Program-made: the position numbers and the translations under genes
The notes under the pieces: generated by a model
Database searches by the model: none
What the model was told of the DNA's origin: nothing
Seen by the model: the letters and a program-made list of their open reading frames with translations, nothing else
In this document: positions 12,634 to 30,365 of the stretch, in pieces
Layout: every line of letters starts with the position of its first letter
Position numbering within the stretch: position 1 is the stretch's first letter
Assembly: GCF_001280255.1 (NCBI RefSeq)
Contig: NZ_LHCI01000106.1
Span: forward strand, 1,155,766 to 1,219,765
Length of the DNA: 64,000 nt
DNA from: Thermus aquaticus
GTDB taxonomy: Bacteria; Deinococcota; Deinococci; Deinococcales; Thermaceae
Direction of reading: 5' to 3'

Positions 12634-13524
12634 ATGGGGCCTTTTCCCCTAGGCCGCCCGGCCCGCCTGGCCGTCTTGGCCTCGGGCCGGGGGACCAACC
12701 TGGAAGCCCTCATGGAGGCCTTTCCCCCGGGGAACCCCCTAGGGGAGGTGGTCCTGGTGGTCTCGGACAACCCCGAGGCCTTGGCCCTGGAGCGGGCGAA
12801 AAGGCGCGGGGTGGAGGCGGTGGCCCTCCCCTGGCGGGGGCGGCGGGCCTTTGAGGGGGAGGCCCTGGACCTCCTGGAGGCGCGGCGGGTGGACCTCGTC
12901 CTCCTCGCTGGTTTCATGCGCCTTCTCTCCCCCCGCTTCGTGGAGCCCTGGTACGGCCGCCTCCTCAACATCCACCCCTCCCTCCTCCCCGACTTCCCCG
13001 GCCTAAGGGTCCACCAGCGGGTCCTGGAGGCGGGGGAGAAGGAGACGGGCTCCACGGTCCACTTCGTGGACCAGGGCATGGACACCGGGCCCATCCTCCT
13101 CCAGGGGCGGGTGCCCGTCCTCCCCGGGGACACCCCCGAGGTCCTGGAGGCCCGGGTCCTCCGCCTGGAGCACCGCCTTTACCCGAGGGCGGTGCGCCTC
13201 CTCCTCCTGGGCCTGGCCTTTCCCCCGCCCGAGGGCCTGGAGGGCCTTTTGGGGGAGGAGGCGGCCCGGCTTTTCCAGGGGCTTTCCCCCAAGGAAAGGC
13301 CCCTTCACCTCCGCGTCTGGGCCCTCCTTCGCGCCTGGGGCATGGAGGACCTGGCGGGGCCCGCCTTTTTGGGCCGGGCGGGGGCCTGGGGCCGGGGAGC
13401 CTTCCTCGCCGCCCACCTCCTGGCCGAGGACCACCCGGCCCTTCGGGCCGAGCTCCTTGAGCTTCCCGAGGAGGTGAGGGAAAAGGCCCTGGCGGCCTTG
13501 GCCCTGGTAGAATCCCCTTCATGA
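12634..13524 (+). CDS. purN: phosphoribosylglycinamide formyltransferase with C-terminal extension
   Basis: 296 residues. The first ~205 are PurN: LASGRGTNLEAL, LAGFMRLLSPRF, NIHPSLLPDFPG (catalytic-type Asn/His) and HFVDQGMDTGPIL (Asp). PurN transfers a formyl group from 10-formyl-THF to GAR in purine synthesis. The remaining ~90 residues (from about GLAFPPPEGLEGLLG) are helical, Leu/Glu/Arg-rich, and not part of the usual ~200-residue enzyme. The ATG follows the MBL stop directly, and the end overlaps purD by 4 bp. Confidence 0.93.
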   Translation: MGPFPLGRPARLAVLASGRGTNLEALMEAFPPGNPLGEVVLVVSDNPEALALERAKRRGVEAVALPWRGRRAFEGEALDLLEARRVDLVLLAGFMRLLSPRFVEPWYGRLLNIHPSLLPDFPGLRVHQRVLEAGEKETGSTVHFVDQGMDTGPILLQGRVPVLPGDTPEVLEARVLRLEHRLYPRAVRLLLLGLAFPPPEGLEGLLGEEAARLFQGLSPKERPLHLRVWALLRAWGMEDLAGPAFLGRAGAWGRGAFLAAHLLAEDHPALRAELLELPEEVREKALAALALVESPS

Positions 13525-14774
13525 AGGTCCTGGTGGTGGGAAGCGGGGGGCGGGAGCACGCCCTTCTCTGGAAGGCGGCGCAAAGCCCTCTGGTGGAGCG
13601 CCTTTACGCCGCCCCCGGCAACGCCGGGATGGAGGCTTTGGCGGAGCGCGTCCCCTGGAACGGGGAGGTGGAGGCCCTGGCGGACTGGGCCCTCGAGGCG
13701 GGCATAGACCTCACCCTGGTGGGCCCTGAGGCCCCCCTGGTGGAGGGGATCGCCGACGCCTTTTGGGAGCGGGGCCTCAAGGTCTTCGGCCCCACCCAGA
13801 AGGCGGCCATGATTGAGGGCTCCAAGGCTTTCGCCAAGAGCCTCATGGAGCGCTACGGCATCCCCACGGCCCGCTACCGAACCTTCCAGGACCCCCTCCT
13901 GGCCCTGGAGTACCTGGAGGAGGTGGGGGTGCCCATCGTGGTCAAGGACTCGGGGCTGGCGGCGGGCAAGGGGGTCACCGTGGCCTTTGACCTCCACACC
14001 GCCAAGCAGGCCGTGGCCAACATCCTGAACCGGGCCGAGGGGGGCGAGGTGGTGATAGAGGAGTACCTGGAGGGCGAGGAGGCCACGGTCCTGGCCCTCA
14101 CCGACGGAAAGACCGTCCTCCCCCTCCTCCCCTCCCAGGACCACAAGCGCCTCCTGGACGGGGACCAGGGCCCTATGACCGGGGGGATGGGGGCGGTGGC
14201 CCCCTACCCCATGGACGGGGCCACCCTAAGGCGGGTGGAGGAGGAGATCCTCTGGCCCCTCGTCCGGGGGCTGGAGGCCGAGGGGGTGGTCTACCGGGGG
14301 GTGATCTACGCCGGCCTCATGCTCACCCGGGAAGGCCCCAAGGTGCTGGAGTTCAACGCCCGCTTCGGCGACCCCGAGGCCCAGGCCGTCTTGCCCCTTC
14401 TCCAAAGCGACCTGGTGGAGCTGGCCCTGAAGGTGGCCGAGGGGAGGCTTCAGGGCACCCGGCTTTCCTGGCGGGAGGGGGCCGCCGCCTGCGTGGTCCT
14501 GGCCGCCCCCGGCTACCCGGAAAACCCCAGGAAGGGGATCCCCCTCCACCTCCCCGAGCCCCCGGAAGGGGTCTTGGTCTTCCACGCCGGGACCCGGCGG
14601 GAAGGGGGCAGGCTCGTGAGCGCCGGGGGGCGGGTCCTAAACGTGGTGGGCCTGGGGAAGGACCTGAAGGAGGCCCTGGAGCGGGCCTACGCCTTCATCC
14701 CCCGGGTGGGCTTCCCCGGGGCGGTCTACCGGCGGGACATCGGCCGGAAGGCCCTGGCCCGCTTCAGTACTTGA
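13521..14774 (+). CDS. purD: phosphoribosylamine--glycine ligase (GAR synthetase)
   Basis: 417 residues, normal length. ATP-grasp features: VVGSGGREHALLWK at the N-terminus, VGPEAPLVEGIADAF, KDSGLAAGKGV, PLLPSQDHKRLLDGDQGP, TGGMGAVAPYP and EFNARFGDPEAQA. It makes GAR from phosphoribosylamine and glycine, the step just before PurN. It is coupled to purN by a 4-bp overlap. Its 3' end overlaps the convergent exonuclease-fusion gene by 11 bp. Confidence 0.96.
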   Translation: MKVLVVGSGGREHALLWKAAQSPLVERLYAAPGNAGMEALAERVPWNGEVEALADWALEAGIDLTLVGPEAPLVEGIADAFWERGLKVFGPTQKAAMIEGSKAFAKSLMERYGIPTARYRTFQDPLLALEYLEEVGVPIVVKDSGLAAGKGVTVAFDLHTAKQAVANILNRAEGGEVVIEEYLEGEEATVLALTDGKTVLPLLPSQDHKRLLDGDQGPMTGGMGAVAPYPMDGATLRRVEEEILWPLVRGLEAEGVVYRGVIYAGLMLTREGPKVLEFNARFGDPEAQAVLPLLQSDLVELALKVAEGRLQGTRLSWREGAAACVVLAAPGYPENPRKGIPLHLPEPPEGVLVFHAGTRREGGRLVSAGGRVLNVVGLGKDLKEALERAYAFIPRVGFPGAVYRRDIGRKALARFST

Positions 14775-16647
14775 GCCGGGCCAGGGGGAGCCGTTCGCAG
14801 GCCCGGAGCGCCTGGACCAGGGTGCGGAAGCCCCTCTCCTTCAGGAGGGGGATCATGCGGGCGTAGACCTCGGCGGTCATGAGGGCATCCCCTAAGGCGG
14901 TGTGCCGGCCCAGGACCGGAACCCCAAAGCGCTCGGCCAGGCGCTCCAGGCGGTGGTCCTTGAGGTCGGGGAAGAGGAGGTGGGCCAGGAGGAGGGTGTC
15001 CACCAGGGGGGGCTGGTTTATGCCCACCTTGCGCAGGAAGGCCATGTCAAAGGCCCCGTTGTGGGCCACCAGGACGCTTCCCTCCAAAAAGGCCCGGAAG
15101 GCGGGGAGGACCTCCTCCAGCTTGGGCTTGCCCTTCAGCATCTCCCAGGTGAGGCCGTGGACCTCGGTGGAGGCTTTGGGGATGGGGCGGCCCGGGTCCA
15201 CCAGAGCCTCGTAAACCTCGTGCCGGAGGACCCGGCTTCCCAGAAGGTGGACCGCCCCCAGGGCGATGATGGTGTCCTCCTTGGGGTCCAGCCCCGTGGT
15301 CTCCAGGTCAAAGGCGGTGTAGAGGAGGCCCTCCAGGGGGGCCTCCTCGAGGGCCTCGGAGACCTCCAGGAGGCTCAGGTCAAAGACCTCGGCCCTGGGG
15401 GGAGGACCAGGGGGGGCGGGCAGGCTCGGGGCCTTCACAGCGGGGAGGAGGAGGATGAGGCGGTGCCCCTCCCGCCACAGGCTTCCGCCTGCCTTTTCCA
15501 CGGCCTCCTTCAGGAGGGGGTGGGGGTCCGGGGCGGGGTGGGGGAAGAGGAGGCTGAGCCGGAGGAAGCCCTCGAGGGCCCTTCCTTCCAGGAGGACCTC
15601 CTCCGCCTCCTTCAGGGTGGCGGCCAGGCCCCGGCCCAGGGCATAGGTGTCCACCCTGAGGAGAAGCCACCTGGCCTCCTCCTCCAGGGCCAGGCCCGGC
15701 TGGACCCCGGCCTCCCGCTCCAGGGTCTCCGCCAGGAGGGCCAGGAGGTCTTGGGCCAGGACCTCGGCGGCTTGTGGCGGGGGCTTTAGGGCCTGGACCA
15801 GCTGGGCGAGCTCCTGGGCGGCCTCCTGGGCCTTCTCGGCCAGGGGCCGGACCTCCGGGGGAGCCTCCTGGGCCAGGATCTCCGCCAGGGCCTTGAGGCC
15901 CGCCAGCTTGTCCTTGAGGCGGTGGAGGGTGGCCTCGTCCAGGCCCTCTTCCCCCTTTTGGGCCTCGAGGATCAGCCCCATCCCCTCCGATAGGGGCACC
16001 GCCTGCAGGAGGAGGTTTTTCCCCCTGGCCTGGGTGAGGAAGCGCTCCTTGGGAAGCCTCAGGGCGTGGGCCAAAAGCCCCGGGTCCAGCAGGCCAAAGA
16101 GGCTTTTGCCGATTCCCAGGCCCTCCCCCAGGAGCTCCTGGGCCTTGGGGTTGTAGAGGACCACCTGGCCCCGGGGGTTGGCCAGGACCACCCCCTGGGG
16201 CAGGTGGGCGATGAGGGCGGAGAGGATGGCCCTTTCCCGCTCCACGAGGGCCTTGGCCTCCTGGACCCTGGCCTCCACCTCCTTCTCCAAAGCGGCCTTC
16301 TCCTCGGCCAGGCGCTGCACCAGGCGGCCTAAGGCCTGGAGCTCCAGGGGGCCCTTTAGGGGCAGGCGGTGGCCCGGGTTGGCCAGGAGAATCTCCGCCT
16401 CCTGGCCCAGGGCCCGGGTGGCCGCCAGGTAGCCCAGGAAGAGGGGGTGGAGGAGCGCCCCCAGCGCCAGGGCGAAGAGGAAGGCCACAAAGAGGAGGAG
16501 GGGGGCCTTGGCCCGCGCCAGCTCCAGGAGCTCCCGGGCCAGGGCCTCCTCGCCCTGGAGGAGGAGGAAGAGGGCGAGCCCCACCACCCCCCCCACCAGG
16601 AGGAGGCCCAGGAGGAGGGCGCCCAAAAAGCGGAAGACCTCCCTCAC
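14764..16647 (-). CDS. membrane PAS/kinase-like/DnaQ-type 3'-5' exonuclease fusion
   Basis: 627 residues. Two membrane helices (about 7-30 and 49-72) are followed by a charged coiled coil (to about 150) and a PAS-like domain (SALIAHLPQGVVLANPRGQV, YNPKAQELLG). Residues ~240-420 are kinase-like with no recognisable phospho-acceptor H-box or N/G boxes. A complete DEDDh exonuclease closes the protein: FDLETTG (Asp447, Glu449), HNGAFD (Asp534), HTALGD (His582, Asp587). The catalytic DEDDh residues all appear present. It overlaps the response regulator by 4 bp. DnaQ-like genes beside acetate-switch sensors are known in proteobacteria, from memory. The nuclease substrate and signal are unknown. Confidence 0.85.
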   Translation of the reverse strand: MREVFRFLGALLLGLLLVGGVVGLALFLLLQGEEALARELLELARAKAPLLLFVAFLFALALGALLHPLFLGYLAATRALGQEAEILLANPGHRLPLKGPLELQALGRLVQRLAEEKAALEKEVEARVQEAKALVERERAILSALIAHLPQGVVLANPRGQVVLYNPKAQELLGEGLGIGKSLFGLLDPGLLAHALRLPKERFLTQARGKNLLLQAVPLSEGMGLILEAQKGEEGLDEATLHRLKDKLAGLKALAEILAQEAPPEVRPLAEKAQEAAQELAQLVQALKPPPQAAEVLAQDLLALLAETLEREAGVQPGLALEEEARWLLLRVDTYALGRGLAATLKEAEEVLLEGRALEGFLRLSLLFPHPAPDPHPLLKEAVEKAGGSLWREGHRLILLLPAVKAPSLPAPPGPPPRAEVFDLSLLEVSEALEEAPLEGLLYTAFDLETTGLDPKEDTIIALGAVHLLGSRVLRHEVYEALVDPGRPIPKASTEVHGLTWEMLKGKPKLEEVLPAFRAFLEGSVLVAHNGAFDMAFLRKVGINQPPLVDTLLLAHLLFPDLKDHRLERLAERFGVPVLGRHTALGDALMTAEVYARMIPLLKERGFRTLVQALRACERLPLARLKY

Positions 16648-17000
16648 AAGCCCTCCGAAAGCCTTTGCACTTCCGCCAGCAGGTCCTGGATGCCGAAGGG
16701 CTTGGCCATGAAGGCCTCTGCCCCCAGGGCCAGGGCCTTGGCCCGGTCCGCCTCCCGGCCCCGGGCGGTGAGGACCAGGACCCGGGGCTTCCTGCCCTGG
16801 GGTAGCCGCTCCAGGACGGCGAAGCCGTCCAGGTCCGGCAGCATCAGGTCCAGGACCAGGAGGTCAAAAGGCCCCTCTTCCAAAAGCCTCAGGGCCTCTG
16901 CCCCCGTTCTGGCCAGGGCCACCTCGTGCCCGGCCTTCTTCAGGAGGAACTCCAGGGGCACCAGGATGCTCTCCTCGTCATCCACCACCAGGATCCGCAT
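16644..17000 (-). CDS. single-domain response regulator (receiver only)
   Basis: 118 residues, just a CheY-like receiver: acidic pocket Asp7/Asp8, phospho-acceptor Asp51 (LVLDLMLPDLDG), Thr78 (VLTAR) and Lys100 (MAKPFG). No output domain follows. Start ATG 17000 gives the canonical MRILVVDDEES; the frame is open farther upstream but lies inside the kinase gene. It overlaps the symporter-kinase gene by 23 bp and the exonuclease fusion by 4 bp. It should be phosphorylated by the neighbouring kinase. In the proteobacterial CrbS/CrbR acetate switch the partner has a DNA-binding domain; this one does not. Confidence 0.9.
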   Translation of the reverse strand: MRILVVDDEESILVPLEFLLKKAGHEVALARTGAEALRLLEEGPFDLLVLDLMLPDLDGFAVLERLPQGRKPRVLVLTARGREADRAKALALGAEAFMAKPFGIQDLLAEVQRLSEGL

Positions 17001-19470
17001 GGTCCACCTCCAAGGGCAGGGCGAAGGCGAAGCGCGCCCCCTCGCCCGCTTCCAAAAAGACCCGCCCCCCCAGGGCCTCGGCGAGCCTCCGGGCCAGGTA
17101 GAGGCCCAGGCCCGTGCCCCCGGCGAAGCTCTGGAAGGGCTCAAAGAGCCATGGCCTCTTTTCCTCGGGCACCCCGGGGCCATCGTCTTGCACATAGAAG
17201 AAGGCCTCCCTCCCCAAAGGCGTGAGCTCCAGGATAACCCGGCTATGGGCGTGGCGGATGGCGTTTTGCAGGAGGTTCAGGAGCACCTGGAGGACCCGGT
17301 CCCGGTCGGTGAGGGCCTGGACCGCCCCATGGGGCAGGCGGCCTTCCAGAAGCACCCCCCGTTCCCGGGCCAGGGGGGCCACCAGGGCCAGGGCCTCTTG
17401 GGCGGGCTCCCGCAGGTCCAGGCGCTGAAGCCTCAGGGGAATCCCCGCCTGGACTTTGGCGTAGGCCAGGACCTCTTCCACCAGGCGGGAGAGGCGGGCC
17501 GCCTCCTTGGCCAAGAGGCCGGTGAAGCGCCGCCTCTCCGCCTCCGGCAGGTCCGGATGGGCCTCCAGGATCTCCGCCAGGGCCCGCACCGCGGTGAGGG
17601 GGGTCTTGAGCTCGTGGGATATGGCGGCCAGAACCTCGTCCTTGGCCTGGTCCAGGGCCTTCAGGCGCTCGTAGGCCTGGGCGAGCTCCCGCCTCGCCTC
17701 CTCGAGGGCCCTGGCGTAGGCCCTAACCTCCTTGGACTCCCGGGCCGCCTCCTCCAGAAGGGCCTCTGGCGGGGCTTTCTCCGTGACGGAAAGGATGAGG
17801 AGCCGGGCGGTGGCGGGCCCCAACGCGCCCGCCAGGAGGGCCTCGGCCTTGGCCGCCGCCTGGGGGCCGGGGAGGTCCTGGGCCTCCTTGAGGAAGGCCG
17901 CCTCCGCCTCCGGGCCCAGGACCCGGGAGAGGAGGTTGGCCAGCGCCCCCACCTCCCCGGTCCGCCCCTCCACCGGCGCCTCCCTCTTGGTGAAGAGGGA
18001 AACCCCCACCACCAGGCCCAGGTTCAGAAGGAGGCTTGCGAAGAAGCCGTGGGTGGTGGCCTCGAGGCCCCGCAGGCCGAGGAGCCCCTCCGGCCTCAGG
18101 AGGGGGTGGGGGCCCTCCAGGAAGACCGGGGGGAGCCAGCCCGACCGCGCCAGGGCTGGCAGGAAGAGGGTGTAGGCCCAGAGGAGGATGCCCCCAAGAA
18201 GCCCCGCCAAGGCCCCTTCCCGGGTGGCCCCCTTCCAGTAGAGGCCGAGGAGGGCGGCCGGGGCCAGCTGGGCCACGGCGGCGAAGGAGATGAGCCCCAT
18301 GGCCACCAGGGCGTAGGCCTCCCCCGCCAAGCGGAAGTAGAGGTAGGCCAGGAGCATGACGGCCAGGATGGAAAGCCTTCGCCAGAGGAGGAGGCTTCCC
18401 AGGGCCTTGGCCCGGAGGAGGAGAGGGGACAGGAGATGGTTGGAGATCAGGATGGAAAGGGCCAGGGCCTCCACGATCACCATGGCCGTCGCCGCCGAGA
18501 CCCCCCCCAGGAAGGCCAGGAGGGCCAGAGCGGGCCCCGCTTCCTGGGCCAGGGCCAGGACGAAGAGGTCGGGGTTGGTTTGGGGGAAGTGGATCCGGCC
18601 CAGAAGGGCCAGGGGGAGGACGGGCAGGTTGATGAGGAGGAGGTAGAGGGGAAAGGCCCAGGCGGCCAGGGGGAGGTGGCCTGGGTTTACGTTCTCCACC
18701 ACGCTCACGTGGAACTGCCGGGGCAGGAAGAGGAAGGCCAGGCCCGAGAGGAGGGTGAGGCCCACCCAGTCCAGGTAGCCGGGAAGCCCCTCCGGGGGCA
18801 GGAGGAGGGGCCAGAGCTCCGGCCTCTTCGGGACCTCCAAAAAGGGGTTTCCCAGGAAAAGAAGCGCGGCCAGCCCCACCAGGAGGAGGGCGAAAAGCTT
18901 CACCGAGGACTCAAAGGCCACGGCCAGGACCAGGCCCTCGTGCCTCTCCGAGGGGTCCAGGCGGCGGGTGCCGAAGAGGATGGCGAAGAGGGCCAGGAAG
19001 AGGGTGGTGATGAGGGCCACGTCCGCCATGGGGGCTCTTTCCCCGCTCAGGAAGAGGAAGGCCTGGGCGATGGCCTTGAGCTGCAGGGCCAGGTAGGGGA
19101 GGAGGCCCAGCACCAAAAACGCGGCCGCCAGGGTGGCCAGGGGGGCGTGGCCGTAGCGCAGGAAGAGGTAGTCCGCCCAGGAGGTGAGGCGGTGGGCCCG
19201 GGCCAGCTCCAAAAGCCTTCCGTGGAGGAAGGGCCAGAGGAGGAGGACCAGGGTGGGCCCCAGGTAGACGGGGAGGAAGGAGGCCCCCTGGGTGGCCGCC
19301 CGGCCCACGCTGCCGAAGAAGGTCCAGGCGGTGGCGTAGACGGCCAGGGAGAGGGCGTAGACCCAGGGGCTTTGCACCAAGGCCCTCCCCCGCCTCTCTC
19401 CCAGGAGGGCCACCAGGAAGAGGAGGGCCAGGTAGAGGAAGAGGCCGGTGAGGAGGAGGGCGGGGCTCAC
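16978..19470 (-). CDS. Na+/solute symporter-histidine kinase fusion (CrbS-like)
   Basis: 830 residues. Residues 1-500 form a sodium:solute symporter domain with about 13 helices (YATAWTFFGSVGRAATQG, GGVSAATAMVIVEALALS). After a coiled linker there is a HisKA domain (ISHELKTPL, His near 619) and a HATPase domain (N-box LLNLLQNAIRH, G1 DDGPGVP, G2 GGTGLGLYLARRL). This is the architecture of CrbS, which controls acs in proteobacteria. It is transcribed with the receiver, exonuclease and DUF294 genes by overlaps. The signal may be acetate or another transported solute (inference). Confidence 0.93.
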   Translation of the reverse strand: MSPALLLTGLFLYLALLFLVALLGERRGRALVQSPWVYALSLAVYATAWTFFGSVGRAATQGASFLPVYLGPTLVLLLWPFLHGRLLELARAHRLTSWADYLFLRYGHAPLATLAAAFLVLGLLPYLALQLKAIAQAFLFLSGERAPMADVALITTLFLALFAILFGTRRLDPSERHEGLVLAVAFESSVKLFALLLVGLAALLFLGNPFLEVPKRPELWPLLLPPEGLPGYLDWVGLTLLSGLAFLFLPRQFHVSVVENVNPGHLPLAAWAFPLYLLLINLPVLPLALLGRIHFPQTNPDLFVLALAQEAGPALALLAFLGGVSAATAMVIVEALALSILISNHLLSPLLLRAKALGSLLLWRRLSILAVMLLAYLYFRLAGEAYALVAMGLISFAAVAQLAPAALLGLYWKGATREGALAGLLGGILLWAYTLFLPALARSGWLPPVFLEGPHPLLRPEGLLGLRGLEATTHGFFASLLLNLGLVVGVSLFTKREAPVEGRTGEVGALANLLSRVLGPEAEAAFLKEAQDLPGPQAAAKAEALLAGALGPATARLLILSVTEKAPPEALLEEAARESKEVRAYARALEEARRELAQAYERLKALDQAKDEVLAAISHELKTPLTAVRALAEILEAHPDLPEAERRRFTGLLAKEAARLSRLVEEVLAYAKVQAGIPLRLQRLDLREPAQEALALVAPLARERGVLLEGRLPHGAVQALTDRDRVLQVLLNLLQNAIRHAHSRVILELTPLGREAFFYVQDDGPGVPEEKRPWLFEPFQSFAGGTGLGLYLARRLAEALGGRVFLEAGEGARFAFALPLEVDHADPGGG

Positions 19471-19643
19471 GGCTTGCGAAAGAACCAGTAGGCCAGGAAG
19501 AGGACCAGGCCCCAGGCCAAGAAGAGGTAGAGGTAAAGGGGCGGGAGGCCGAAAGGCCCCCAGGGCGCTAAGGGAAAGAGGGCAAGGGGCATGAGGAAGA
19601 GGAAGAAGGCCAGGAAGAAGAGGGCCAGGGCCTTGGCCTTCAT
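19467..19643 (-). CDS. 58-residue two-helix membrane protein in the acetate signalling block
   Basis: MKAKALALFFLAFFLFLMPL... has two hydrophobic helices (about 5-25 and 33-54) and a short basic tail (FRKP). The ATG at 19643 overlaps the DUF294 stop as ATGA, and the end overlaps the symporter-kinase ATG by 4 bp. It is therefore part of the coupled block and likely real. An in-frame upstream extension reads into the DUF294 gene with non-hydrophobic sequence and is not favoured. Function unknown; a small subunit or chaperone for the symporter-kinase is possible. Confidence 0.7.
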   Translation of the reverse strand: MKAKALALFFLAFFLFLMPLALFPLAPWGPFGLPPLYLYLFLAWGLVLFLAYWFFRKP

Positions 19644-21382
19644 CGTAGCTGAAACCGGGCCGCCGTGCTCTCCTGGACTTCCTGGATGGCCCGGAAGCCC
19701 TCGAGGGCCCGCCGCCTCTCGCCGGGGCTCAAGGCCTCCCACAGGACGCGGTTTTCCAGAGGGGCCCCCTTCTCCAAGGCCTCCAGCTGGGCCTTCAGCC
19801 TCAGGCCGAAGAAGAAGGCGAAGGCCTCCCCCAGGCGCTCCGCCCCCTCCTGGCTCAGGGTGCCTCCCTGGGCGGCGGCCTTGAGCCTCTCCTCGGTGCC
19901 CAGGGCCCGGCTTCCCGCCATGAGGGCGTAGAGGCGGGCCAGGGCCACGATGGGGGCCAGGGCGTGCCGCTTCAGGTCCACATACCCCTCCTCGGTGCGC
20001 ACCCGGCCCAGGAAGCCCAGGGGGGGGCGGAAGGCTAGAGCCGCCTGGGCCAGGTGGTAGAGGAAAACCCCCTTGCGGCTTCCCTCCAGGATGGCCTCCT
20101 CCAGGGGCCTTAAGGAGAGCTCCCCGGCCACGGAGCGGAAGTCAAAGAAGATCTGGGTCTCCAGGAGGGCCTGGGGCTCTGGGGCCTCCATCCACTTCCG
20201 GAAGGTGGAGAGCCAGTCCTTTAGGGGCATGCGCCAGCGGGTGGCCATGTACCCTCCCTTGCACTCGGGGATGCCCGCCCGGATGAGCCCCTCAACCACG
20301 GCCTCCGCCAGGGCCTGGAAGTAGGCCTCGTGCCCCTCCTCCTTGAGCACCAGGGCGTTGTCCTGGTCGGTGAGGAGGGCCTGCTCCCTACGCCCTTCCG
20401 AGCCGAAGACCATGAAGCTATAAGGGATGGGGGGCGGCCCCAGGCGGGCCTCGGCCTCCTTGACGAGCCTCCGGATGAGAGCGTCGTTGAGGCCCGCCAC
20501 CACCCGGCCGATCCCTGTGGGGGGGAGGCCGCTGTGGACCAGGCTCTCCACCAGGCGGGCCACCTCCTCGGCGTAGCGGCTGAGCTCCAGCCGCTCCACC
20601 CGCCGGAGGAGGAGGAGGGGACTGATGGCGGGGACCAGGTCGGTGTGGGTCACCACGCCCACCACCTTCGCCCCCTCCAATAGGGGCAGGTGGTGGATCC
20701 CCCGCTCCACCATGGCGGCCAGGGCCTCGTAGAGGGGGGTGTCGGCGGGGAGGGCGAAGAGGGGGCGGGTGGCCACCTCCCCCACCGGGGTGGAGGAGGG
20801 CCTTTCCTGGGCCAGGACCCGGTTCCGCAGGTCCCGGTCGGTGAGGATGCCCAAGGGCTCCCCCTCCACCAGGAGGCTGGAGACCCCTTCCTGGGCCATC
20901 CTCCTGGCCGCCTCGGCCACCGTGGCCCCGGGGGCGATGTAGAGGGGCGGGCGGCGCACGAGCCGCCCCACGGGGGTGAAGAGGTCGGCCCGGACCCCCG
21001 CCCTGAGGCGCACCCGGTCTCCCAGCCGGGCGGCGAAGTAACGGGCGGCCTCGGGGTAGGAGAGGAGCCAGAAGAAGACCTCCTTGGGCCAGCGGAGGAC
21101 CTCCACCCCTTCCTTGGCCACCACCCCCAGGGCCGGGGGCTCCCCCAGGAAGAGGGAGGGGAAGCCGAAGAAGGCCCCGGGGCCCAGGACCTCCACCTCC
21201 TCCTCCCCGTCCACCAGGGCCACGCGCCCCCGGGCCACCAGGTAGAGGTGCTGGCTGGGGGGGCCGCCCTGGGCCAGGATGGTGGCCCCCTCCGGGTAGG
21301 CAAGCCGCTCCAGGGTGGCCTCGAGGCGGGCCAGGGCCTCTTCAGGCAGGTCCTTTAGGGGTGGGATGGTCTTTAGGTCCAT
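19640..21382 (-). CDS. cNMP-binding/CBS-pair/DUF294 nucleotidyltransferase protein
   Basis: 580 residues. An N-terminal cyclic-nucleotide-binding-like domain (10-125) has FFGFPSLFLGEPPALG, but the arginine that normally binds the cyclic phosphate is absent. A CBS pair (about 140-265: LYIAPGATVAEAARRM, GILTDRDL, GVVTHTDLV) follows. Next is a DUF294 GlnD-like nucleotidyltransferase (FGSEGRREQALLTDQDNAL) with the expected GS and DxD, and finally a DUF294 C-terminal helical domain. Such proteins accompany acs/actP loci in many bacteria. The target of nucleotidylation is unknown. It overlaps the 58-residue gene by 4 bp, and its start lies inside the end of the preceding membrane gene. Confidence 0.92.
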   Translation of the reverse strand: MDLKTIPPLKDLPEEALARLEATLERLAYPEGATILAQGGPPSQHLYLVARGRVALVDGEEEVEVLGPGAFFGFPSLFLGEPPALGVVAKEGVEVLRWPKEVFFWLLSYPEAARYFAARLGDRVRLRAGVRADLFTPVGRLVRRPPLYIAPGATVAEAARRMAQEGVSSLLVEGEPLGILTDRDLRNRVLAQERPSSTPVGEVATRPLFALPADTPLYEALAAMVERGIHHLPLLEGAKVVGVVTHTDLVPAISPLLLLRRVERLELSRYAEEVARLVESLVHSGLPPTGIGRVVAGLNDALIRRLVKEAEARLGPPPIPYSFMVFGSEGRREQALLTDQDNALVLKEEGHEAYFQALAEAVVEGLIRAGIPECKGGYMATRWRMPLKDWLSTFRKWMEAPEPQALLETQIFFDFRSVAGELSLRPLEEAILEGSRKGVFLYHLAQAALAFRPPLGFLGRVRTEEGYVDLKRHALAPIVALARLYALMAGSRALGTEERLKAAAQGGTLSQEGAERLGEAFAFFFGLRLKAQLEALEKGAPLENRVLWEALSPGERRRALEGFRAIQEVQESTAARFQLR

Positions 21383-21701
21383 GGTCCGGGGTCAGCCAGG
21401 CTATCAGGGGGACGATGTAGGGCAGAGCCACCTGCGCCTGAAACAGGACCACGAGGCCCACCCCCAGGACAAAGGCCGGGGGCAGGAGCACAAAAAGCCG
21501 CACCACGCGGCCTAGGCCGGGTGGGGGTAGGGGCCAGATGCGGTGGTAGAGGAGGCCAAGCCCAAGGCCTAAGGCTACTCCCAAGGCGATCTGGAGGAGG
21601 ATCCAGGGGGTGGGGAAGGGGAAGCCCAGGAGGTAGTGGCCCAGGAGGTAAAAGGCGAAAAGGGCGCTCAGGCTTCCCAGGTAAAACCGCAAAAGCTTCA
21701 T
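21342..21701 (-). CDS. small membrane protein, three helices
   Basis: 119 residues with hydrophobic segments at about 6-25, 33-50 and 66-100, and a Pro/His/Lys-rich tail (DHGPKDHPTPKG). Start ATG 21701 is preceded by GGAGG, and a -10-like TATACT (21712-21717) lies just upstream. Its last ~14 codons overlap the start of the DUF294 gene in another frame, so one start could be slightly off. No family recognised. It is the first gene after the terminator that closes the symporter operon. Confidence 0.65.
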   Translation of the reverse strand: MKLLRFYLGSLSALFAFYLLGHYLLGFPFPTPWILLQIALGVALGLGLGLLYHRIWPLPPPGLGRVVRLFVLLPPAFVLGVGLVVLFQAQVALPYIVPLIAWLTPDHGPKDHPTPKGPA

Positions 21702-21758: not shown

Positions 21759-23429
21759 CTAGTGCTCGGCGGCGGCCCCGCTTCCCTTGGGCACGCGGAT
21801 CTCGTCCACCAGCTTCTGGATCTCCTGGGGCGGGGACGAGGTGGCCCGGGAGACCAGGTAGGCCACCAGGAAGTTGAGGAGCATACCGATGGCGCCGATG
21901 CCTTCTGCCGTGATGCCAAAGATGAAGTTGGGCCAGCCCAGGTACTTGGTGCCCACGATGTAGGTGGCGGTGAAGACCAGGCCCACGATCATCCCCGCTA
22001 CCGCTCCCTGCATGTTCATCCTCCGGTCAAAGATGCCCAGGAGGATGGCGGGGAAGAAGGTGCTGGCGGCAAGCCCGAAGGCGAAGGCCACCAGCTGGGC
22101 GATGAAGGCCGGGGGGTTGATGCCGAAGGGGGCGGCCAGGATCACCACCAGGGCGATGACCACCCGGGCGATGGTGAGCTTGGTGGCCTCGGAGGCGTTG
22201 GGGTTGATCATCCGGGTGTAGAGGTCGTGGGAGATGGCGCTGGCCATCACGATCAGGAGGCCTGCGGCCGTGGAGAGGGCGGCGGCCAGGCCCCCCGCCG
22301 CCACCAGGCCCACGATGAAGGGGGCCAGCTTGGCCACCTCGGGGGTGGAGAGGACGATGATGTCCCGGTCAATGGTGACCTCGTTGACGTCCTTGTTGCC
22401 GCTCATCTGCAGGATGCCGTCCCCGTTCTTGTCCTCAAACTTGAGGAGGCCCGTCTTCTCCCACTTGGCCACCCAGTCGATCTGGCGCACCTCCTCCAGG
22501 GGCTTATTGGCCAGGGTGTTGAGGAGGTTGTACTTGGAGAAGACGGCCACGGCGGGGGCGGGGGTGTAGAGGAGGCCAATGAAGAGGAGGGCCCAGCCGG
22601 CGCTCCAGCGGGCGTCCGAGGCCCTGGGCACGGTGTAGAAGCGGATGATCACGTGGGGGAGGCCAGCGGTCCCCACCATGAGGGTCAGGGTGATGAGGAA
22701 GACGTTGAGGGCGGAGAGGTTCTGGAAGGGGGCCACGTACTCCTTGAAGCCCAGCTCCACCTGGAGCTGGCTCAGGCGCACGGCGAAGTCGCTGAAGGTG
22801 AAGGAGAGCTGGGGGATGGGGTTGCCGGTGAGGAGGTTGGAGAGGGCGATGCCCGTGATCAGGTAGGCGGAGATGAGTACGGTGTACTGGGCCACCTGGG
22901 TCCAGGTGATCCCCTTCATGCCGCCGATCACGGCGATGAAGGCGGTGACCAAGACGGCGGCCCAGACCCCCGTGGCCACATCCACCCCCAAATAGCGGGA
23001 GAGGACGATGCCCACGCCCCTGAGCTGGGGAACCATGTAGACGAAGGAAACGAACAGGGCGCTGATGATGGCCACCACCCGGGCGAGGTTGGAGTAGTAG
23101 CGGTCCCCCACGAACTCGGGCACGGTGTACTTGCCGTACTTGCGCAGGTAGGGGGCGAGGAGGAGGGCCAGGAGGACGTACCCGCCGGTCCAGCCCATGA
23201 GGTAGACGGCCCCGTCGTAACCCAGGAAGGAGATGAGGCCCGCCATGGAGATGAAGCTGGCCCCCGACATCCAGTCGGCGGCGGTGGCGGCCCCGTTGGC
23301 CACCGGGGGCACCCCCCGGCCCGCCACGTAGAAGCCCGCCGTCTCCCGCACCCGGGCCCAGTAGCCGATGCCCAAGTAAAGGGCAAAGCTGAGAATCACA
23401 ATGGTCCAAGTCCAGGCTTCAACGCTCAC
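21759..23429 (-). CDS. sodium/solute symporter large subunit, VC_2705 type (acetate/ActP-like)
   Basis: 556 residues with the SSS fold of 13 or so helices: FYVAGRGVPPVANGAATAAD, MSGASFISMAGLISFLGYDG, GLPHVIIRFYTVP and VAAGGLAAALSTAAGLLIVM. A loop near residues 335-365 carries DKNGDGILQMSG, resembling half an EF-hand. I recall this loop as typical of the VC_2705 subfamily that pairs with DUF4212. It probably imports acetate or another short monocarboxylate with Na+. It is co-transcribed with the DUF4212 gene 11 bp upstream, from a strong promoter. Exact substrate is inferred from the acs context. Confidence 0.9.
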   Translation of the reverse strand: MSVEAWTWTIVILSFALYLGIGYWARVRETAGFYVAGRGVPPVANGAATAADWMSGASFISMAGLISFLGYDGAVYLMGWTGGYVLLALLLAPYLRKYGKYTVPEFVGDRYYSNLARVVAIISALFVSFVYMVPQLRGVGIVLSRYLGVDVATGVWAAVLVTAFIAVIGGMKGITWTQVAQYTVLISAYLITGIALSNLLTGNPIPQLSFTFSDFAVRLSQLQVELGFKEYVAPFQNLSALNVFLITLTLMVGTAGLPHVIIRFYTVPRASDARWSAGWALLFIGLLYTPAPAVAVFSKYNLLNTLANKPLEEVRQIDWVAKWEKTGLLKFEDKNGDGILQMSGNKDVNEVTIDRDIIVLSTPEVAKLAPFIVGLVAAGGLAAALSTAAGLLIVMASAISHDLYTRMINPNASEATKLTIARVVIALVVILAAPFGINPPAFIAQLVAFAFGLAASTFFPAILLGIFDRRMNMQGAVAGMIVGLVFTATYIVGTKYLGWPNFIFGITAEGIGAIGMLLNFLVAYLVSRATSSPPQEIQKLVDEIRVPKGSGAAAEH

Positions 23430-23893: not shown

Positions 23894-25777
23894 CTACTCC
23901 TCGAGGGTGGAGAGGTCCCCGGGGTCTTTGCCCAGCTCCTGGGCCTTAAGAAGCCGCCGCAGGATCTTGCCGGAGCGGGTCTTGGGGAGCTTGTCCAGGA
24001 AGACCACCTCGCTCGGGGTGGCGATGGGGCCCAGCTCCCTTCGCACGTGCTGGACGATGCTGTCTTTAAGCTCCTCGGAAGGGGTCTGGCCCAGGCGCAA
24101 GACCACGAAGGCCTTGATGGCCTCCCCCTTGACGGGGTCGGGTACCCCGATCACCGCCGCCTCGGCCACGGCGGGGTGGGAGACCAGGGCGCTCTCCACG
24201 TCGGCGGTGCCGATGCGGTGCCCGGCCACGTTGAGGACGTTGTCGGCCCGGCCCAGGACGCTATAGTAGCCCTCCTCGTCCTGGCTGGCCACGTCCCCGG
24301 CCACGTAGACGTTGCCGGGGATCTCCCGCCAGTACTGCAGGTAGCGGTCGTGGTTGCCCCAGACGGTGCGCATCATGTGGGGGAAGGGGCGCTTGAGGAC
24401 CAGAAGCCCGCCCTGCCCCGGGGGCACGGGCCTCCCCGCCTCGTCCACCACCGCTGCCTCCACCCCGGGCAGGGCCACCCCGGCGAAGCCGGGCTTGGCG
24501 GGGAGGGTGAGGGGGGTGCCCAGGGTGGGGCCTCCCAGCTCCGTCTGCCACCAGTTGTCGGCCACGAAGCCCTGCCTCCCCTCGTCCACCAGGTGCTGGT
24601 AGGCGAAGCGCAGGGCCTCGGGGTTCAGGGGCTCCCCGGCCACGGCGATGAGGCGAAGGCTGGAGAGGTCGTACTTCCTCGGCCACTCGGGGCCGAACTT
24701 CATGAACATGCGCACCGCCGTGGGGGCGGTGAACATGACGTTCACCCGGTAGCGCTCCACCGCCCGCCAGATGGCCCCGGGGTCCGGGTAGTCGGGGGCC
24801 CCTTCCCGCAGGACGCTGGTGATGCCCTCCAGGAGAGGGGCGTAGACGATGTAGGAGTGGCCCACGATCCAGCCGATGTCGCTGGTGGCCCAGAAGAGGT
24901 CGTCGTCCTTGACGTCAAAGAAGGTGCGCAGGTGGTAGGTAGTGCCCACCATGTACCCGTCGTGCACGTGAACCACGCCCTTGGGCTTTCCCGTGGAGCC
25001 CGAGGTGTAGAGGATGAAGAGGGGGTGCTCGGCCTCCACCATCTCCGCCCGGGCCTCGGGCGGGTGGCCGAAGAGGAGCTCCTCAAAGTCGTAGTGCCCC
25101 GGGGGAAGCTCCGCCTTGCCCAGGCGCTGGAACCAGACCACCTTGAGGGGGAGGTCGCGGATGGCCTCCTCGGCGATGGAGCGGAGGTCCACCACCTTGC
25201 CCCGCCTATAGCTCACGTCCCCGGCGATGAGGAGCTTGGCCCCGGCGTCCAGAATCCGCTCCCTTAAGGCCCCCACGCCGAGGCCGGCGTAGACCACGCT
25301 GTGGATGGCCCCCAGGTAGGCGGTGGCCAGCATGGCCAGGATACCCTCCGGGGTGAGGGGCATGTAGATGACCACCCGGTCGCCCTTCCCCACCCCCAGG
25401 GCCTTCAGGGCCGTGGCCAGGCGGCGCACCCGGTCCAGAAGCTCCCCGTAGGTGAGCTTGGCCTCTTGGCCTTCCTCGGAGAGGTAGAGGAGGGCCACCT
25501 TGTTCCTGAGGCCCCGCTCCACGTTGCGTTCCAGGGCGTTGTACACGGCGTTGGTGGTGCCCCCCAAGAACCAGCAGTGCTCGGGCAGGTTCCACTCCAG
25601 GACCCTCTCAAAGGGTTTCTCCCAGTAAAAGCGCCTGGCCCACGCCCCCCAGAAGCCCTCGGGGTCCTCGAGGCTCCGCCGGTACTCCCCATAGAAGTCC
25701 TGGAGGTTGGCCGCCTTCCTCAGGTGCTCCGGTGCCCAAAGCTTTTCCTCGCTCTTAAGAATCTTTTCCACCGCCAT
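23894..25777 (-). CDS. acs: acetyl-CoA synthetase paralogue 1 (AMP-forming)
   Basis: About 627 residues. AMP-binding motif [56 protein letters not shown] and the C-terminal catalytic lysine region [12 protein letters not shown]. The canonical acetate enzyme has WWQTETGG; the Thr-to-Leu change here could alter the acyl pocket. It makes acyl-CoA through acyl-AMP. Start ATG 25777 (SD GGAGG 6 bp upstream) lies within the 3' end of the IclR-Acs gene. A nearer ATG at 25783 is too close to the SD. The Lys may be acetylation-controlled, as in known Acs (family knowledge). Confidence 0.93.
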   Translation of the reverse strand: MAVEKILKSEEKLWAPEHLRKAANLQDFYGEYRRSLEDPEGFWGAWARRFYWEKPFERVLEWNLPEHCWFLGGTTNAVYNALERNVERGLRNKVALLYLSEEGQEAKLTYGELLDRVRRLATALKALGVGKGDRVVIYMPLTPEGILAMLATAYLGAIHSVVYAGLGVGALRERILDAGAKLLIAGDVSYRRGKVVDLRSIAEEAIRDLPLKVVWFQRLGKAELPPGHYDFEELLFGHPPEARAEMVEAEHPLFILYTSGSTGKPKGVVHVHDGYMVGTTYHLRTFFDVKDDDLFWATSDIGWIVGHSYIVYAPLLEGITSVLREGAPDYPDPGAIWRAVERYRVNVMFTAPTAVRMFMKFGPEWPRKYDLSSLRLIAVAGEPLNPEALRFAYQHLVDEGRQGFVADNWWQTELGGPTLGTPLTLPAKPGFAGVALPGVEAAVVDEAGRPVPPGQGGLLVLKRPFPHMMRTVWGNHDRYLQYWREIPGNVYVAGDVASQDEEGYYSVLGRADNVLNVAGHRIGTADVESALVSHPAVAEAAVIGVPDPVKGEAIKAFVVLRLGQTPSEELKDSIVQHVRRELGPIATPSEVVFLDKLPKTRSGKILRRLLKAQELGKDPGDLSTLEE

Positions 25778-28289
25778 AACCATCCTCCAGCCCCGAGGTG
25801 TCCCCCGGGTCCACGCCCAAAAGCTCGGCCTTGAGAAGCCGCCTCAGGATCTTGCCGCTCCGGGTGCGGGGGAGGCTTTCGGTGAAGAAGACCTCCACCG
25901 GCCCCAAAGGCCCCAGGTGGCAGAAGAGGTGGGCCTTGAGCTTCTCCGCCAGAAGGGGCTTCAGCTCTTCGGGCAGGTCCTTGGTCCTGGGCACGACGAA
26001 GAGGACCAGCCTCTCCCCCTCCTCCCCGGGCAGGCCGATGGCGGCGGCCTCGGCCACCTGGGGGTGGGTGAGGAGGGCCGCCTCCACCTCGGCGGTGCCC
26101 AGCCTGGCCTCCCCCAGCTTGATGACCTCTTCGGAGCGGCCCAGGATGCGGAAGTACCCCTCCTCGTCCATGAGGGCCAGGTCCCCCGTGAGGTAGAGCC
26201 CGCCCCGCCAGGGGTTCTCCCCTCCCAGGAGGCCCACCAGCTGGGCCGGCCCCGCCCGTAGGAGGACCAGGTGGCCCCTCTCCCCCGGGGGCAGGACCCG
26301 TCCCTCGCCGTCCACTACCCGGGCCTCCACCCCGGGCAGGGGTACCCCCACGAAGCCGGGCTTGGCCGGGAGGGGAAGGGGGGTGGCCAGGGCCGGGGCT
26401 CCCAGCTCCGTCTGCCACCAGTTGTCCAGGGGCCAGGCCAGGTTCTCCCTGGTCCAGCGCCAGACCTCGGGGGCCAGGGCTTCCCCCACGCTGCCCACGA
26501 GCCTTAGCCCCGTGGGCCTGGCCTCCCCGTGGCGGCGTAGGGTGCGGAGGACCGTGGGGGAGGTGAGGAGGACCCTCACGCCCAGGCGTTCCAGCCTCTG
26601 GTAGAAGGCGCTGGGGCTGGGGTGGTCGGGCCGGTCCTCCAAGAGGAGGCTCGTCCCCCCGAGGAAGAGGGGAGCGTAGAGGCCGAAGGAGTGGCCCACG
26701 ATCCAGAAGAGGTCGGCGGTGGTGTGGAAGACTTCTCCGGGTTTCAGGTCAAAGAGGTGGCGCAGGGCCCAGGCCACGCCCACCATGTACCCCCCGTGGC
26801 CGTGGACCACCCCTTTGGGCGTGCCCGTGGAGCCCGAGGTGTGGAGGAGGAAGAGGGGGTGGGAGGAGGGGACGGGGAGGGCCTCCTGGGGCTTGCCCTC
26901 CATGGCCCGTTCCAGAAACTCCGTGGTGCCCCTCCGGTGCCAGAGGACAGGGAGGTCTAGGCCCGAGAGGGCGGCCTCCACCGCCGCCCGGGTGGGCGCG
27001 AACCGGCCCCTTAGGTAGTACCCGTCGGCGGCGATGAGGAGGCGGGCTTCGCCCTTTAGGAGCCGCTGGCGCAGGACCTCGGGGCCCAGGCCCATGGGCA
27101 GGGCCATGTGGACCGCCCCCAGGCGGGCGCAGGCCAGCATGGCGATGGCCGCTTCCACCCCCGTGGGCAGGTAGAGGGCTACCCGGTCCCCCGGACCCAC
27201 CCCCAGGTCCTTCAGCACCCCCGCTAGGCGGGCGGAGAGGTCGTGGAGTTCCCGATAGGTCCACTTCTCCAGGGTCCCTTCCCCGTCCAGGGTGAGGAGG
27301 GCCACCTGCTGGCTCCTTTCCGGGAGGTGGCGGTCTAGGGCGTTCAGGGCGGCGTTGGTGAGGCCCCCTTGGAACCAGGCCCGGCTTTCGGCGTCATACA
27401 CCCTCTCCCAGGGCCTGGCCCAAAGGAGCCCTTGGGCGAAGTCGCCCCAGAAGCCTTCCGGGTCCTCGAGGCTCTGGCGGTAGAGGGCGGGGAAGTCCTG
27501 GAGGTTGGCCTTTTCCAAAAGCTCACTAGGGGGCTCCACCACCTCCACCTGGGGCCCCACCTCGGCGGGCGGGGGGAGGGGAGGGGGCTCGGGGGCGGGC
27601 AGGTGGGCGGAGACCTGGGCCACCTCCGAGAGGGCCCGGGCCAGGCGGCTGAAGGCGAAGGGGAAGCGCCGGGCGGGCACCACCACCCCCAAAGCCCCCA
27701 GAACCTCCCCCTTGGGGCCCAGGAGGGGGGCCGCCAGGGCGGAGATCCCCAGGGCGTACTCCTCCATCCCCACCGCCAGCCCCGAGGCCCGGACCCGCTC
27801 CAGCTCGGCCTCGAGGGCCAAGGGGTCGGTGAGGGTGTAGGGGGTCTTGGGGAAGAGGGGGGGGACGGGCAGGACCCCGTGGGCCAGGAGGACCTTGCCC
27901 AGGGCCAGGGCGTGGGCCTCGGGGGGCAGGGTCTCCCCCAGGGGGTTGGGCTGGCCCTGCCGCCCCCGGGTCTTGAGCCGGACCCCTTCCGGGGTGAGGA
28001 GGGCCAGGTAGCACCGCTCCCGGGTCCTCAGGTAGAGCTCCTCCAGGGCCTCCTCCAGGAAGCCCTGGGCCTTAGGGGCGGGCCGGGCCCGGGCCAGGGT
28101 GTACCGCCCTTCCCCTTTGACGGCGAAGCCCTCCTCCACCAGGCTGTTGAGGAGGGCGTAGGCGGCGGAGAGGCTCCGGCCCAGGTGCCTGGCCACCTCC
28201 TTGGCCTCCACCCCTTCCGGGTGCTCCGCCAGATAGGCCAGGACGCGCAGGGCCGCCTGCACCGTGGAAAGCCCCTTTCGCCGCGGCAT
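25755..28289 (-). CDS. IclR-family regulator fused to an acetyl-CoA synthetase-like enzyme
   Basis: 844 residues. Residues ~5-65 are an IclR winged helix ([35 protein letters not shown]). Residues ~70-240 match the IclR effector domain. A proline-rich linker (~245-265) leads to a full acyl-CoA synthetase: [52 protein letters not shown]. The motif GRxDDVINVAGHR reads [15 protein letters not shown]. Start ATG 28289 is preferred because its -10 (28298-28303) lies 8 bp upstream, making the mRNA leaderless; ATG 28349 would lie upstream of the promoter. The ORF is continuous and overlaps acs1. Confidence 0.88.
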
Positions 28290-28297
28290 CTGGCCCC

Positions 28298-28327
28298 ATC
28301 TTCCCGAGGGAAAAGGCCCGCTGTCAA
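28298..28327 (-). promoter_or_regulatory. promoter of the IclR-Acs/acs1 operon
   Basis: Minus-strand -35 TTGACA (28322-28327), 18-bp spacer, -10 GAAGAT (28298-28303). The start point is predicted next to ATG 28289. The bases from the -35 outward (28322-28347) are shared with the symporter promoter. Confidence 0.75.
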
Positions 28328-28348
28328 GAAAAGGGAGATTTTTCGCCA

Positions 28349-28398
28349 TTTCGCAAACCCCCTTTTTCTTGACCCCGTGGGCCCGGGCCGCCTATCCT
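28349..28398 (+). promoter_or_regulatory. acs: promoter of acs (plus strand) with shared upstream element
   Basis: -35 TTGACC (28369-28374), 18-bp spacer, -10 TATCCT (28393-28398). The upstream part TTTCGCAAACCCCC-T-rich-TTGAC resembles the elements at the two other acetate promoters. It is back to back with the IclR-Acs promoter, and 28341-28357 contains paired GCGAAA-type boxes that a dimeric regulator could bind. Confidence 0.75.
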
Positions 28399-28418
28399 CG
28401 GAAAGCGAAGGAGGACCT

Positions 28419-30365
28419 ATGGACCGGATTGAGGGTGTGCTCAAGGAGGAGCGGGTCTTTTACCCTAGCGAGGCGTTCCGCAAGCAGGCCCACATCGGGA
28501 GCGAGGAGGAGTACGAAAGGCTCTACCGGGAGAGCCTCGAGGACCCCGAGGGCTTCTGGGGACGGGTGGCCTCGGAGCTCCACTGGTTCACCCCCTGGCA
28601 GAAGGTCCTGGAGGGGGACCTGCCCCACCCCAAGTGGTTCGTGGGGGGCAGGACCAACCTCTCCTACAACGCCCTGGACCGCCACCTGGGGACCTGGCGC
28701 AAAAACAAGGCCGCCCTCATCTGGGAGGGGGAGCCGGGGGAGGAGCGGGTCCTCACCTACCACGACCTCTGGCGGGAGGTGCAGAAGTTCGCCAACGTCC
28801 TCAAGCGCCTGGGGGTCAAGAAGGGGGACCGGGTCACCATCTACCTGCCCATGATCCCCGAGGCGGCCATCGCCATGCTGGCCTGTACCCGCATCGGGGC
28901 GGTGCACTCCGTGGTCTTTGGGGGCTTTTCCTCGGGGGCGCTGGCGGACCGCATCAAGGACGCCGAGGCCAAGGTCCTCATTACCGCCGACGGGGGTTAC
29001 CGCCGGGGGAGCATCGTCCCCCTCAAGCAAAACGCCGACGAGGCCCTGAAGGAGACCCCCAGCGTGGAGCACGTGGTGGTGGTGCGCCGCACCGGGGAGG
29101 AGGTGCCCATGACCCCGGGCCGGGACCACTGGTGGCACGAGCTCATGGAGGTGGTCTCCGACCGGGCGGACCCCGAGCCCATGGAGGCGGAAGACCCCCT
29201 CTTCATCCTCTACACCTCGGGCTCCACCGGGAAGCCCAAGGGCGTCCTCCACACCCTGGGCGGGTACATGACCTACGTCTACTACACCACCAAGCTGGTC
29301 TTTGACCTCAAGGACGAGGACGTGTACTGGTGCACTGCCGACGTGGGCTGGATCACCGGGCACTCCTACGTGGTCTACGGCCCTCTCCTCAACGGGGCCA
29401 CCACGGTCATGTACGAGGGGGCCCCCAACTGGCCCGAGCCCGACCGCTTCTGGCAGATCGTGGACAAGTACGGGGTCACCATCTTCTACACCGCCCCCAC
29501 CGCCATCCGGGCCTTCATGAAGTGGGGGGAGAACTGGCCCTTAAAGCACCGCCTGGACACCCTCCGCCTTCTCGGGACCGTGGGCGAGCCCATCAACCCC
29601 GAGGCCTGGCTTTGGTACTACCAGGTGATCGGCAAGGGGCGTTGCCCCATCGTGGACACCTGGTGGCAGACGGAGACCGGGGGCATCATGATCACCACCC
29701 TGCCCGGGGCCCACGCCATGAAGCCCGGGCATGCCGGCAAGCCCTTCTTCGGCATCAGGCCGGAGATCCTGGACTCCGAGCACCGGCCCGTGGAGAACCC
29801 CAACGAGGGCGGGCACCTCTGCATCACCCGGCCCTGGCCCAGCATGCTCCGCACCGTCTGGGGGGACCCGGAGCGCTTCATCCAGCAGTACTTCAGCCAG
29901 CACCCCGGGGTCTACTTCACCGGGGACGGGGCCAGGCGCGACCAGGACGGCTACTACCTGATCCTGGGCCGGGTGGACGACGTCCTCAACGTGGCCGGGC
30001 ACCGGCTTGGCACCATGGAGATTGAGTCGGCCCTGGTCTCCCACCCCGCCGTGGCCGAGGCGGCGGTGGTGGGCCGGCCCGATCCCCTGAAGGGAGAGGC
30101 CATCGTGGCCTTCGTCACCCTGAAGGAGGGCCACACTCCCTCCGGGGCCCTGGGGGAGGAGCTCAAGGCCCACGTGGCCAAGGTCATCGGCCCCATCGCC
30201 CGCCCCGACGAGGTGCGCTTCACCGACGCCCTGCCCAAGACCCGCTCCGGCAAGATCATGCGCCGCCTCCTGCGGCAGATCGCCGCCGGGGAGCAGGAGA
30301 TCAAGGGGGACACCTCCACCCTCGAGGACCGCTCCGTGGTGGAGAGGCTGAAGCAGGGCTCCTAA
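28419..30365 (+). CDS. acs: acetyl-CoA synthetase (canonical)
   Basis: 648 residues, the normal length. All canonical motifs are present: [70 protein letters not shown] and [15 protein letters not shown] (catalytic Lys). It activates acetate to acetyl-CoA through acetyl-AMP. Start ATG 28419 has SD AAGGAGG (28408-28414). It is transcribed divergently from the IclR-Acs gene and closed by a strong hairpin. Of the three paralogues this is the most standard acetate enzyme. Confidence 0.97.

Follow-up and report, generated by a model that had tools for sequence, protein, structure and literature searches.

In the DivJ-DivK-DivL system of Caulobacter, a REC-only response regulator is phosphorylated by a kinase other than DivL. 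DivL is a PAS-containing pseudo-histidine kinase that acts on the kinase CckA and carries no nuclease. For this system, a kinase repurposed for sensing the phosphorylation state of the regulator has been described (PMC4211667). A second related system is the CrbS/R (MxtR/ErdR) acetate switch of Pseudomonas and Vibrio, in which a symporter-fused kinase works with CrbR, a LuxR-type transcription factor, and in which DUF294 and exonuclease genes are tied to monocarboxylate transport and use (PMC5715377, PMC9927547). One DUF294-exonuclease pair is PP_0354-PP_0353 of Pseudomonas putida; ErdR binds the PP_0354 promoter and deletion of PP_0353 delays growth on pyruvate (PMC9927547). The genes PA3232-PA3235 are induced about 16-fold on propionate (PMC9765439). 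PP_0353 and PA3232 are standalone exonucleases, and the locus described here shares with them the DEDDh type and the DUF294 neighbour.

The locus lies in a stretch of 64,000 nucleotides of Thermus aquaticus DNA (hereafter, the window). Its operon encodes, in order, a symporter, a small membrane protein, a DUF294 protein, another small membrane protein, a symporter-fused histidine kinase, a REC-only regulator and an exonuclease fused to a membrane pseudokinase (Table 1). The REC and exonuclease genes overlap by 4 bases, between the stop of the former and the GTG start of the latter. As in CrbS, the SSF, HisKA and HATPase_c domains of the window kinase are found in one protein (Pfam E values of 1.2e-6, 2.2e-15 and 1.6e-21). 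In contrast to CrbS/R, the regulator consists of REC only and the exonuclease is joined to a membrane pseudokinase.

Table 1 Features of the operon in the window (residue numbers refer to the fusion protein).
Feature	Position	Strand	Remarks
Membrane pseudokinase-exonuclease gene	14764..16647	-	627 aa, GTG start
DEDDh exonuclease domain, residues about 437-605	14833..15339	-	Pfam RNase_T, AlphaFold2, Foldseek
CA-like (ATPase-fold) pseudokinase domain, residues 294-405	15433..15768	-	N, G1 and G2 motifs absent
DHp-like helical hairpin, residues 238-286	15790..15936	-	Proposed REC-docking site; hairpin seen with AlphaFold2
PAS domain, residues 152-229	15961..16194	-	PAS_8 E 6e-5 (match at residues 142-193); AlphaFold2
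Two transmembrane helices, residues 2-30 and within 48-89	16381..16644	-	AlphaFold2; hydropathy of homologues
REC-only response regulator	16644..17000	-	118 aa; Pfam Response_reg E 2.2e-26
Histidine kinase fused to sodium/solute symporter domain	16978..19470	-	Kinase motifs intact; Pfam
cNMP-binding/CBS/DUF294 putative nucleotidyltransferase	19640..21382	-	DUF294 E 2.4e-44, DUF294_C E 1.4e-42
VC_2705-family sodium/solute symporter	21759..23429	-	TIGR03648 E 1.6e-237

The two small hydrophobic proteins of the operon (19467-19742 and 21342-21701, minus strand) score below every Pfam and NCBIfam cut-off; the second is kept beside the symporter in several relatives. The 3' end of the exonuclease gene overlaps a convergent purD-like ORF (13521-14774, plus strand) by 11 bases. 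Three acetyl-CoA-synthetase-like ORFs, named by sequence reading, adjoin the operon (23894-30365), one of which (25755-28349, minus strand) seems to follow an IclR-like DNA-binding domain in a single fused protein. Beyond them is a methylmalonyl-CoA-mutase-like gene (30801-32345), named in the same way.

Architecture and catalytic domain of the fusion protein

The AlphaFold2 model of the fusion protein, built from a 74-sequence alignment (mean pLDDT 86.6, pTM 0.46), comprises two N-terminal helices, a coil at residues 101-147, the PAS domain, the DHp hairpin, the CA-like fold as an alpha/beta sandwich, a disordered linker at residues 409-422 and the exonuclease domain; because the pTM is 0.46, the relative placement of these domains is unreliable. 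Pfam matches PAS_8, gives a weak HisKA match under the family cut-off (E 0.0097), and finds no HATPase_c in the 627 residues. In Foldseek searches of the PDB, a WalK-type histidine kinase (9a5d) aligns over 453 columns with an E value of 7.5e-16, and other histidine kinases, including the kinase-regulator complex 3a0r, are also returned. The membrane-PAS-DHp-CA layout is that of WalK, from which the fusion differs by the loss of the kinase motifs and by the exonuclease joined at its C-terminus. The segment past the second helix is HAMP-like in appearance; since Pfam matches no HAMP domain in any of 26 members, none is claimed. An earlier note, made by reading the letters of the window, had described a membrane-held sensor with two helices, a PAS domain and a kinase-like core leading into an exonuclease, and had proposed structure prediction as a check. 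The ORF, Pfam, AlphaFold2 and Foldseek agree with this description, including the membrane anchoring by the two N-terminal helices.

The C-terminal domain matches RNase_T at residues 445-595 (E 1.4e-32). The five catalytic residues of the DEDDh type named in the earlier note (Asp447, Glu449, Asp534, His582 and Asp587) are all found at these positions, in motifs that start with DLETTG at 447, NGAFD at 530 and GRHTALGD at 580, and are constant in 95 of 95 aligned homologues. Foldseek places the domain with PolC (E 1.9e-13), DnaQ and the epsilon exonucleases; the closest structures by identity are 2p1j at 42% and epsilon at about 31%, and the proofreaders 2p1j, 9qpc, 8h2f and 2gui share its fold and catalytic residues at 27-42% identity. 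By profile, fold and catalytic set, the protein is thus predicted to belong to the DEDDh 3'-5' exonucleases. A chance motif is ruled out by the Pfam E value, by residues that stay constant in homologues and by the fold seen with Foldseek.

The earlier note held that the enzyme is unlike those of replication. This is right for its architecture and gene context, as it lies outside any replicase, is attached to a membrane signalling protein and is set in a two-component operon, but it does not extend to the catalytic domain, whose nearest relatives are the PolC/epsilon proofreading exonucleases. Homologues without the catalytic residues, which the note had named as counting against its reading, occur once: L129 (genome G132, 671-2698), a divergent homologue outside the core family, keeps the membrane and PAS parts and has lost all five residues, while the 95 aligned homologues are intact.

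Distribution and the kinase-like core

The fusion architecture is ancient and occurs in Betaproteobacteria, some Gamma- and Deltaproteobacteria, Chloroflexota and Thermaceae. Its complete form is found again in other phyla, which puts it far beyond chance. Among 50 Thermaceae genomes searched, nearly all species of the same genus carry the gene. A scan for the exonuclease domain over 84,980 species, one genome per species, gave at least 561 confirmed relatives, of which 80 loci were kept; Betaproteobacteria supply most of these, joined by some from Gammaproteobacteria, from Deltaproteobacteria-type MAGs and from one Caldilineaceae MAG. Complete ORFs among the kept relatives are mostly 660-790 aa long and have the exonuclease at the C-terminal end, behind one or two membrane helices at the N-terminal end; the longer ORFs probably have over-extended starts. 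In 60 of these 80 loci, all from other genomes, the gene immediately upstream of the exonuclease encodes REC, and in most of the 60 the symporter-fused kinase precedes it. The order in three more distant class members (L131, L132 and L134) is REC-exonuclease-kinase instead of kinase-REC-exonuclease. In two Thermus species (L025 in G025 and L026 in G029, minus strand) a shift of frame interrupts the gene at the CA-exonuclease linker, close to about eight consecutive C in its proline-rich part, and the exonuclease half is conserved but read in another frame; this may reflect slippage, a split gene or phase variation.

HHalign matches the DHp-CA part of the fusion to the neighbouring histidine kinase's core across 213 columns, with 23% identity (E 3.5e-24). 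Alignments show the H-box and the ATP-binding motifs missing from the fusion, and none of 26 fusion members has a HATPase_c match in Pfam. Judged by its sequence, the fusion thus lacks the set that marks an active histidine kinase, namely the H-box histidine with the N, G1 and G2 motifs. The motifs are intact in 52 readable symporter-fused kinases (one row is gapped over part), and the phosphoacceptor Asp51 and Lys100 of REC are constant in 84 of 84 homologues. The earlier note had spoken of a decayed kinase-like middle. The kinase motifs are indeed lost, but as the loss is common to several phyla, the core is an old, conserved pseudokinase and not one in ongoing decay; recent decay in this genome is ruled out by the same finding.

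The H-box position is occupied by histidine in most Thermus members (His242 in the window protein), by phenylalanine in two Thermus members, by arginine in G010 and by glutamate or other residues in betaproteobacteria. Like DivL, the fusion combines a kinase fold with the lack of a conserved phosphoacceptor histidine. A Spo0B-like phosphotransfer, by which the DHp histidine takes the phosphate from REC and the resulting phosphohistidine gates the exonuclease, would fit the histidine of most Thermus members, but the substitutions elsewhere argue against transfer to a position so variable. Such a phosphorelay is ruled out as the mechanism of the family, and in any form we regard it as very improbable.

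The DHp hairpin and the response regulator

The DHp hairpin and the REC gene covary. Deletion of the hairpin is confined to three members, L033 (G049, a genome of the searched Thermaceae set in which the rest of the fusion is present), L102 and L113, and whole-genome searches found no symporter-fused kinase in the genomes of these three. Other members without the kinase retain the exonuclease and mostly have a degenerate DHp. Domains were scored with leave-out profiles, the training set for each test sequence being made up of REC-bearing members that share under 80% identity with it across the exonuclease domain. Outside the Thermaceae, members that have REC reach a median DHp score of 94.9 bits and those lacking it 10.2 bits (p 3.7e-8), as compared with 345.8 and 331.2 bits for the exonuclease (p 0.002) and 168.7 and 157.9 bits for PAS (p 0.048); the REC classes and thresholds behind these values were chosen after the alignment and data had been inspected, and L115 and L135 were excluded as unclear. 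On a tree made without the DHp columns, REC status requires 10 changes and yields 8-9 independent pairs, with 6-8 as predicted and none opposite (p about 0.016). Several of the genomes are incomplete MAGs. Two exceptions, L087 and L098, keep a fair DHp (60-62 bits) without kinase and REC. L135 retains DHp with no adjacent REC and, because its genome has a second copy with REC, was left out of the later tests.

The proteobacterial exonuclease DHp profile was run on six genomes. In all five of the betaproteobacterial and Pseudomonas genomes with a kinase next door, the cognate kinase was the best match after the exonuclease itself, with E values of 4e-10 to 4e-12 and at least 13 bits over the next best (E 1e-6 or weaker). 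The Thermus DHp profile recovered nothing significant beyond its own protein in seven Thermus genomes, the cognate kinase included, so the specificity argument is limited to Proteobacteria; the Thermus DHp has diverged too far for such a recovery. For the window's own species, REC docking is suggested by gene order, fold, homology and one co-loss (G049).

It may be argued that the kinase-like part does no more than dimerise or tether a constitutive exonuclease, and that the kinase and REC act elsewhere. REC-only regulators may have other targets and some fusion members do persist without REC, but the DHp is lost or degenerate in most REC-less members while PAS, CA and exonuclease stay, which makes a pure scaffold unlikely. 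The signal control proposed in the earlier note gains indirect support from the REC-only gene directly upstream and from a DHp that is kept with REC and mostly decayed or lost in its absence.

DUF294 as a possible partner and a proposed route to the exonuclease

An even sample of 185 genomes from one class contained 10 that match the fusion profile strongly; in one of them (G207) the match is a free exonuclease. DUF294, which is widespread in this class (57 of the 185 genomes), occurs in nine of the 10 and in 48 of the other 175 (Fisher p 1.2e-4); the tenth is G132, the genome of the dead exonuclease domain of L129, which has no DUF294 match. It was also found somewhere in 19 of 20 genomes chosen mostly because none was seen beside the fusion. 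Two Thermus species carry a free DUF294-exonuclease pair without the membrane part, and one Pseudomonas genome carries two such pairs. The two Thermus loci, L034 (G035) and L035 (G027), have neither kinase nor REC, the exonuclease follows DUF294, and a different symporter adjoins the pair. The Pseudomonas pairs (L126 and L127) differ from the fusion by the absence of the membrane, PAS and kinase-like parts, at about 30-36% identity. The partnership of DUF294 and the exonuclease is one of association only.

Two other roles for the exonuclease can be considered in this light. DEDDh enzymes work on RNA or DNA 3' ends, so that, on a REC signal, the membrane-held enzyme could trim acetate or pyruvate mRNAs or small RNAs, with DUF294 merely a co-regulated neighbour. 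The authors of the PP_0353 study likewise propose mRNA degradation (PMC9927547). However, the closest solved structures are DNA proofreading domains, Pfam finds no RNA-binding domain in the window operon proteins or in the 26 members, and the joint travel of DUF294 and exonuclease is left unexplained; RNA decay of this kind is therefore possible but doubtful. The linked cNMP-binding/CBS/nucleotidyltransferase protein might instead point to an oligoribonuclease-like enzyme that degrades signalling dinucleotides or modified nucleotides made by the pathway. We find this improbable, as sequence and fold group the domain with PolC/DnaQ and Pfam finds no nucleotide cyclase among the scanned operon proteins.

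The reading that we favour, and consider probable, is that the fusion is a membrane pseudo-histidine kinase with a REC-gated DEDDh exonuclease as its output, linked to DUF294 and to the control of short-chain acid metabolism. The anatomy, the exonuclease residues, the lost kinase motifs, the operon order and the DHp-REC covariation, read from sequences and models, support it. The symporter-fused kinase would sense a short-chain monocarboxylate and phosphorylate the REC-only protein. By analogy to DivJ-DivK-DivL, REC in one of its phosphorylation states would then dock on the DHp hairpin of the pseudokinase, and docking, together with PAS input, may move the CA-like domain and so switch the membrane-held exonuclease on or off. 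Exonuclease and DUF294 might perhaps act on a common target, a protein or an RNA 3' end, where one adds and the other removes nucleotides, and the pair might serve the control of acetate, propionate and pyruvate use. Only tentatively do we suggest the fullest form of this proposal, a new class of two-component output in which REC docking switches an exonuclease that reverses DUF294 nucleotidylation, as a phosphorylation-controlled write/erase switch in short-chain acid metabolism.

The open-access literature yielded no account of the fusion, or of an exonuclease as the output of a REC-reading pseudokinase. Pseudokinases that read response regulators are already known, with none found there that has a nuclease output; as far as could be found, the parts are known and their wiring to a nuclease is new. 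If correct, the favoured reading would widen two-component signalling to include a membrane-held nuclease under its direct control and would give a function to a large family otherwise recognisable just as exonuclease-domain proteins. Both the DUF294 nucleotidyltransferases and the PP_0353 pyruvate phenotype of Pseudomonas putida would also gain a role that can be tested.
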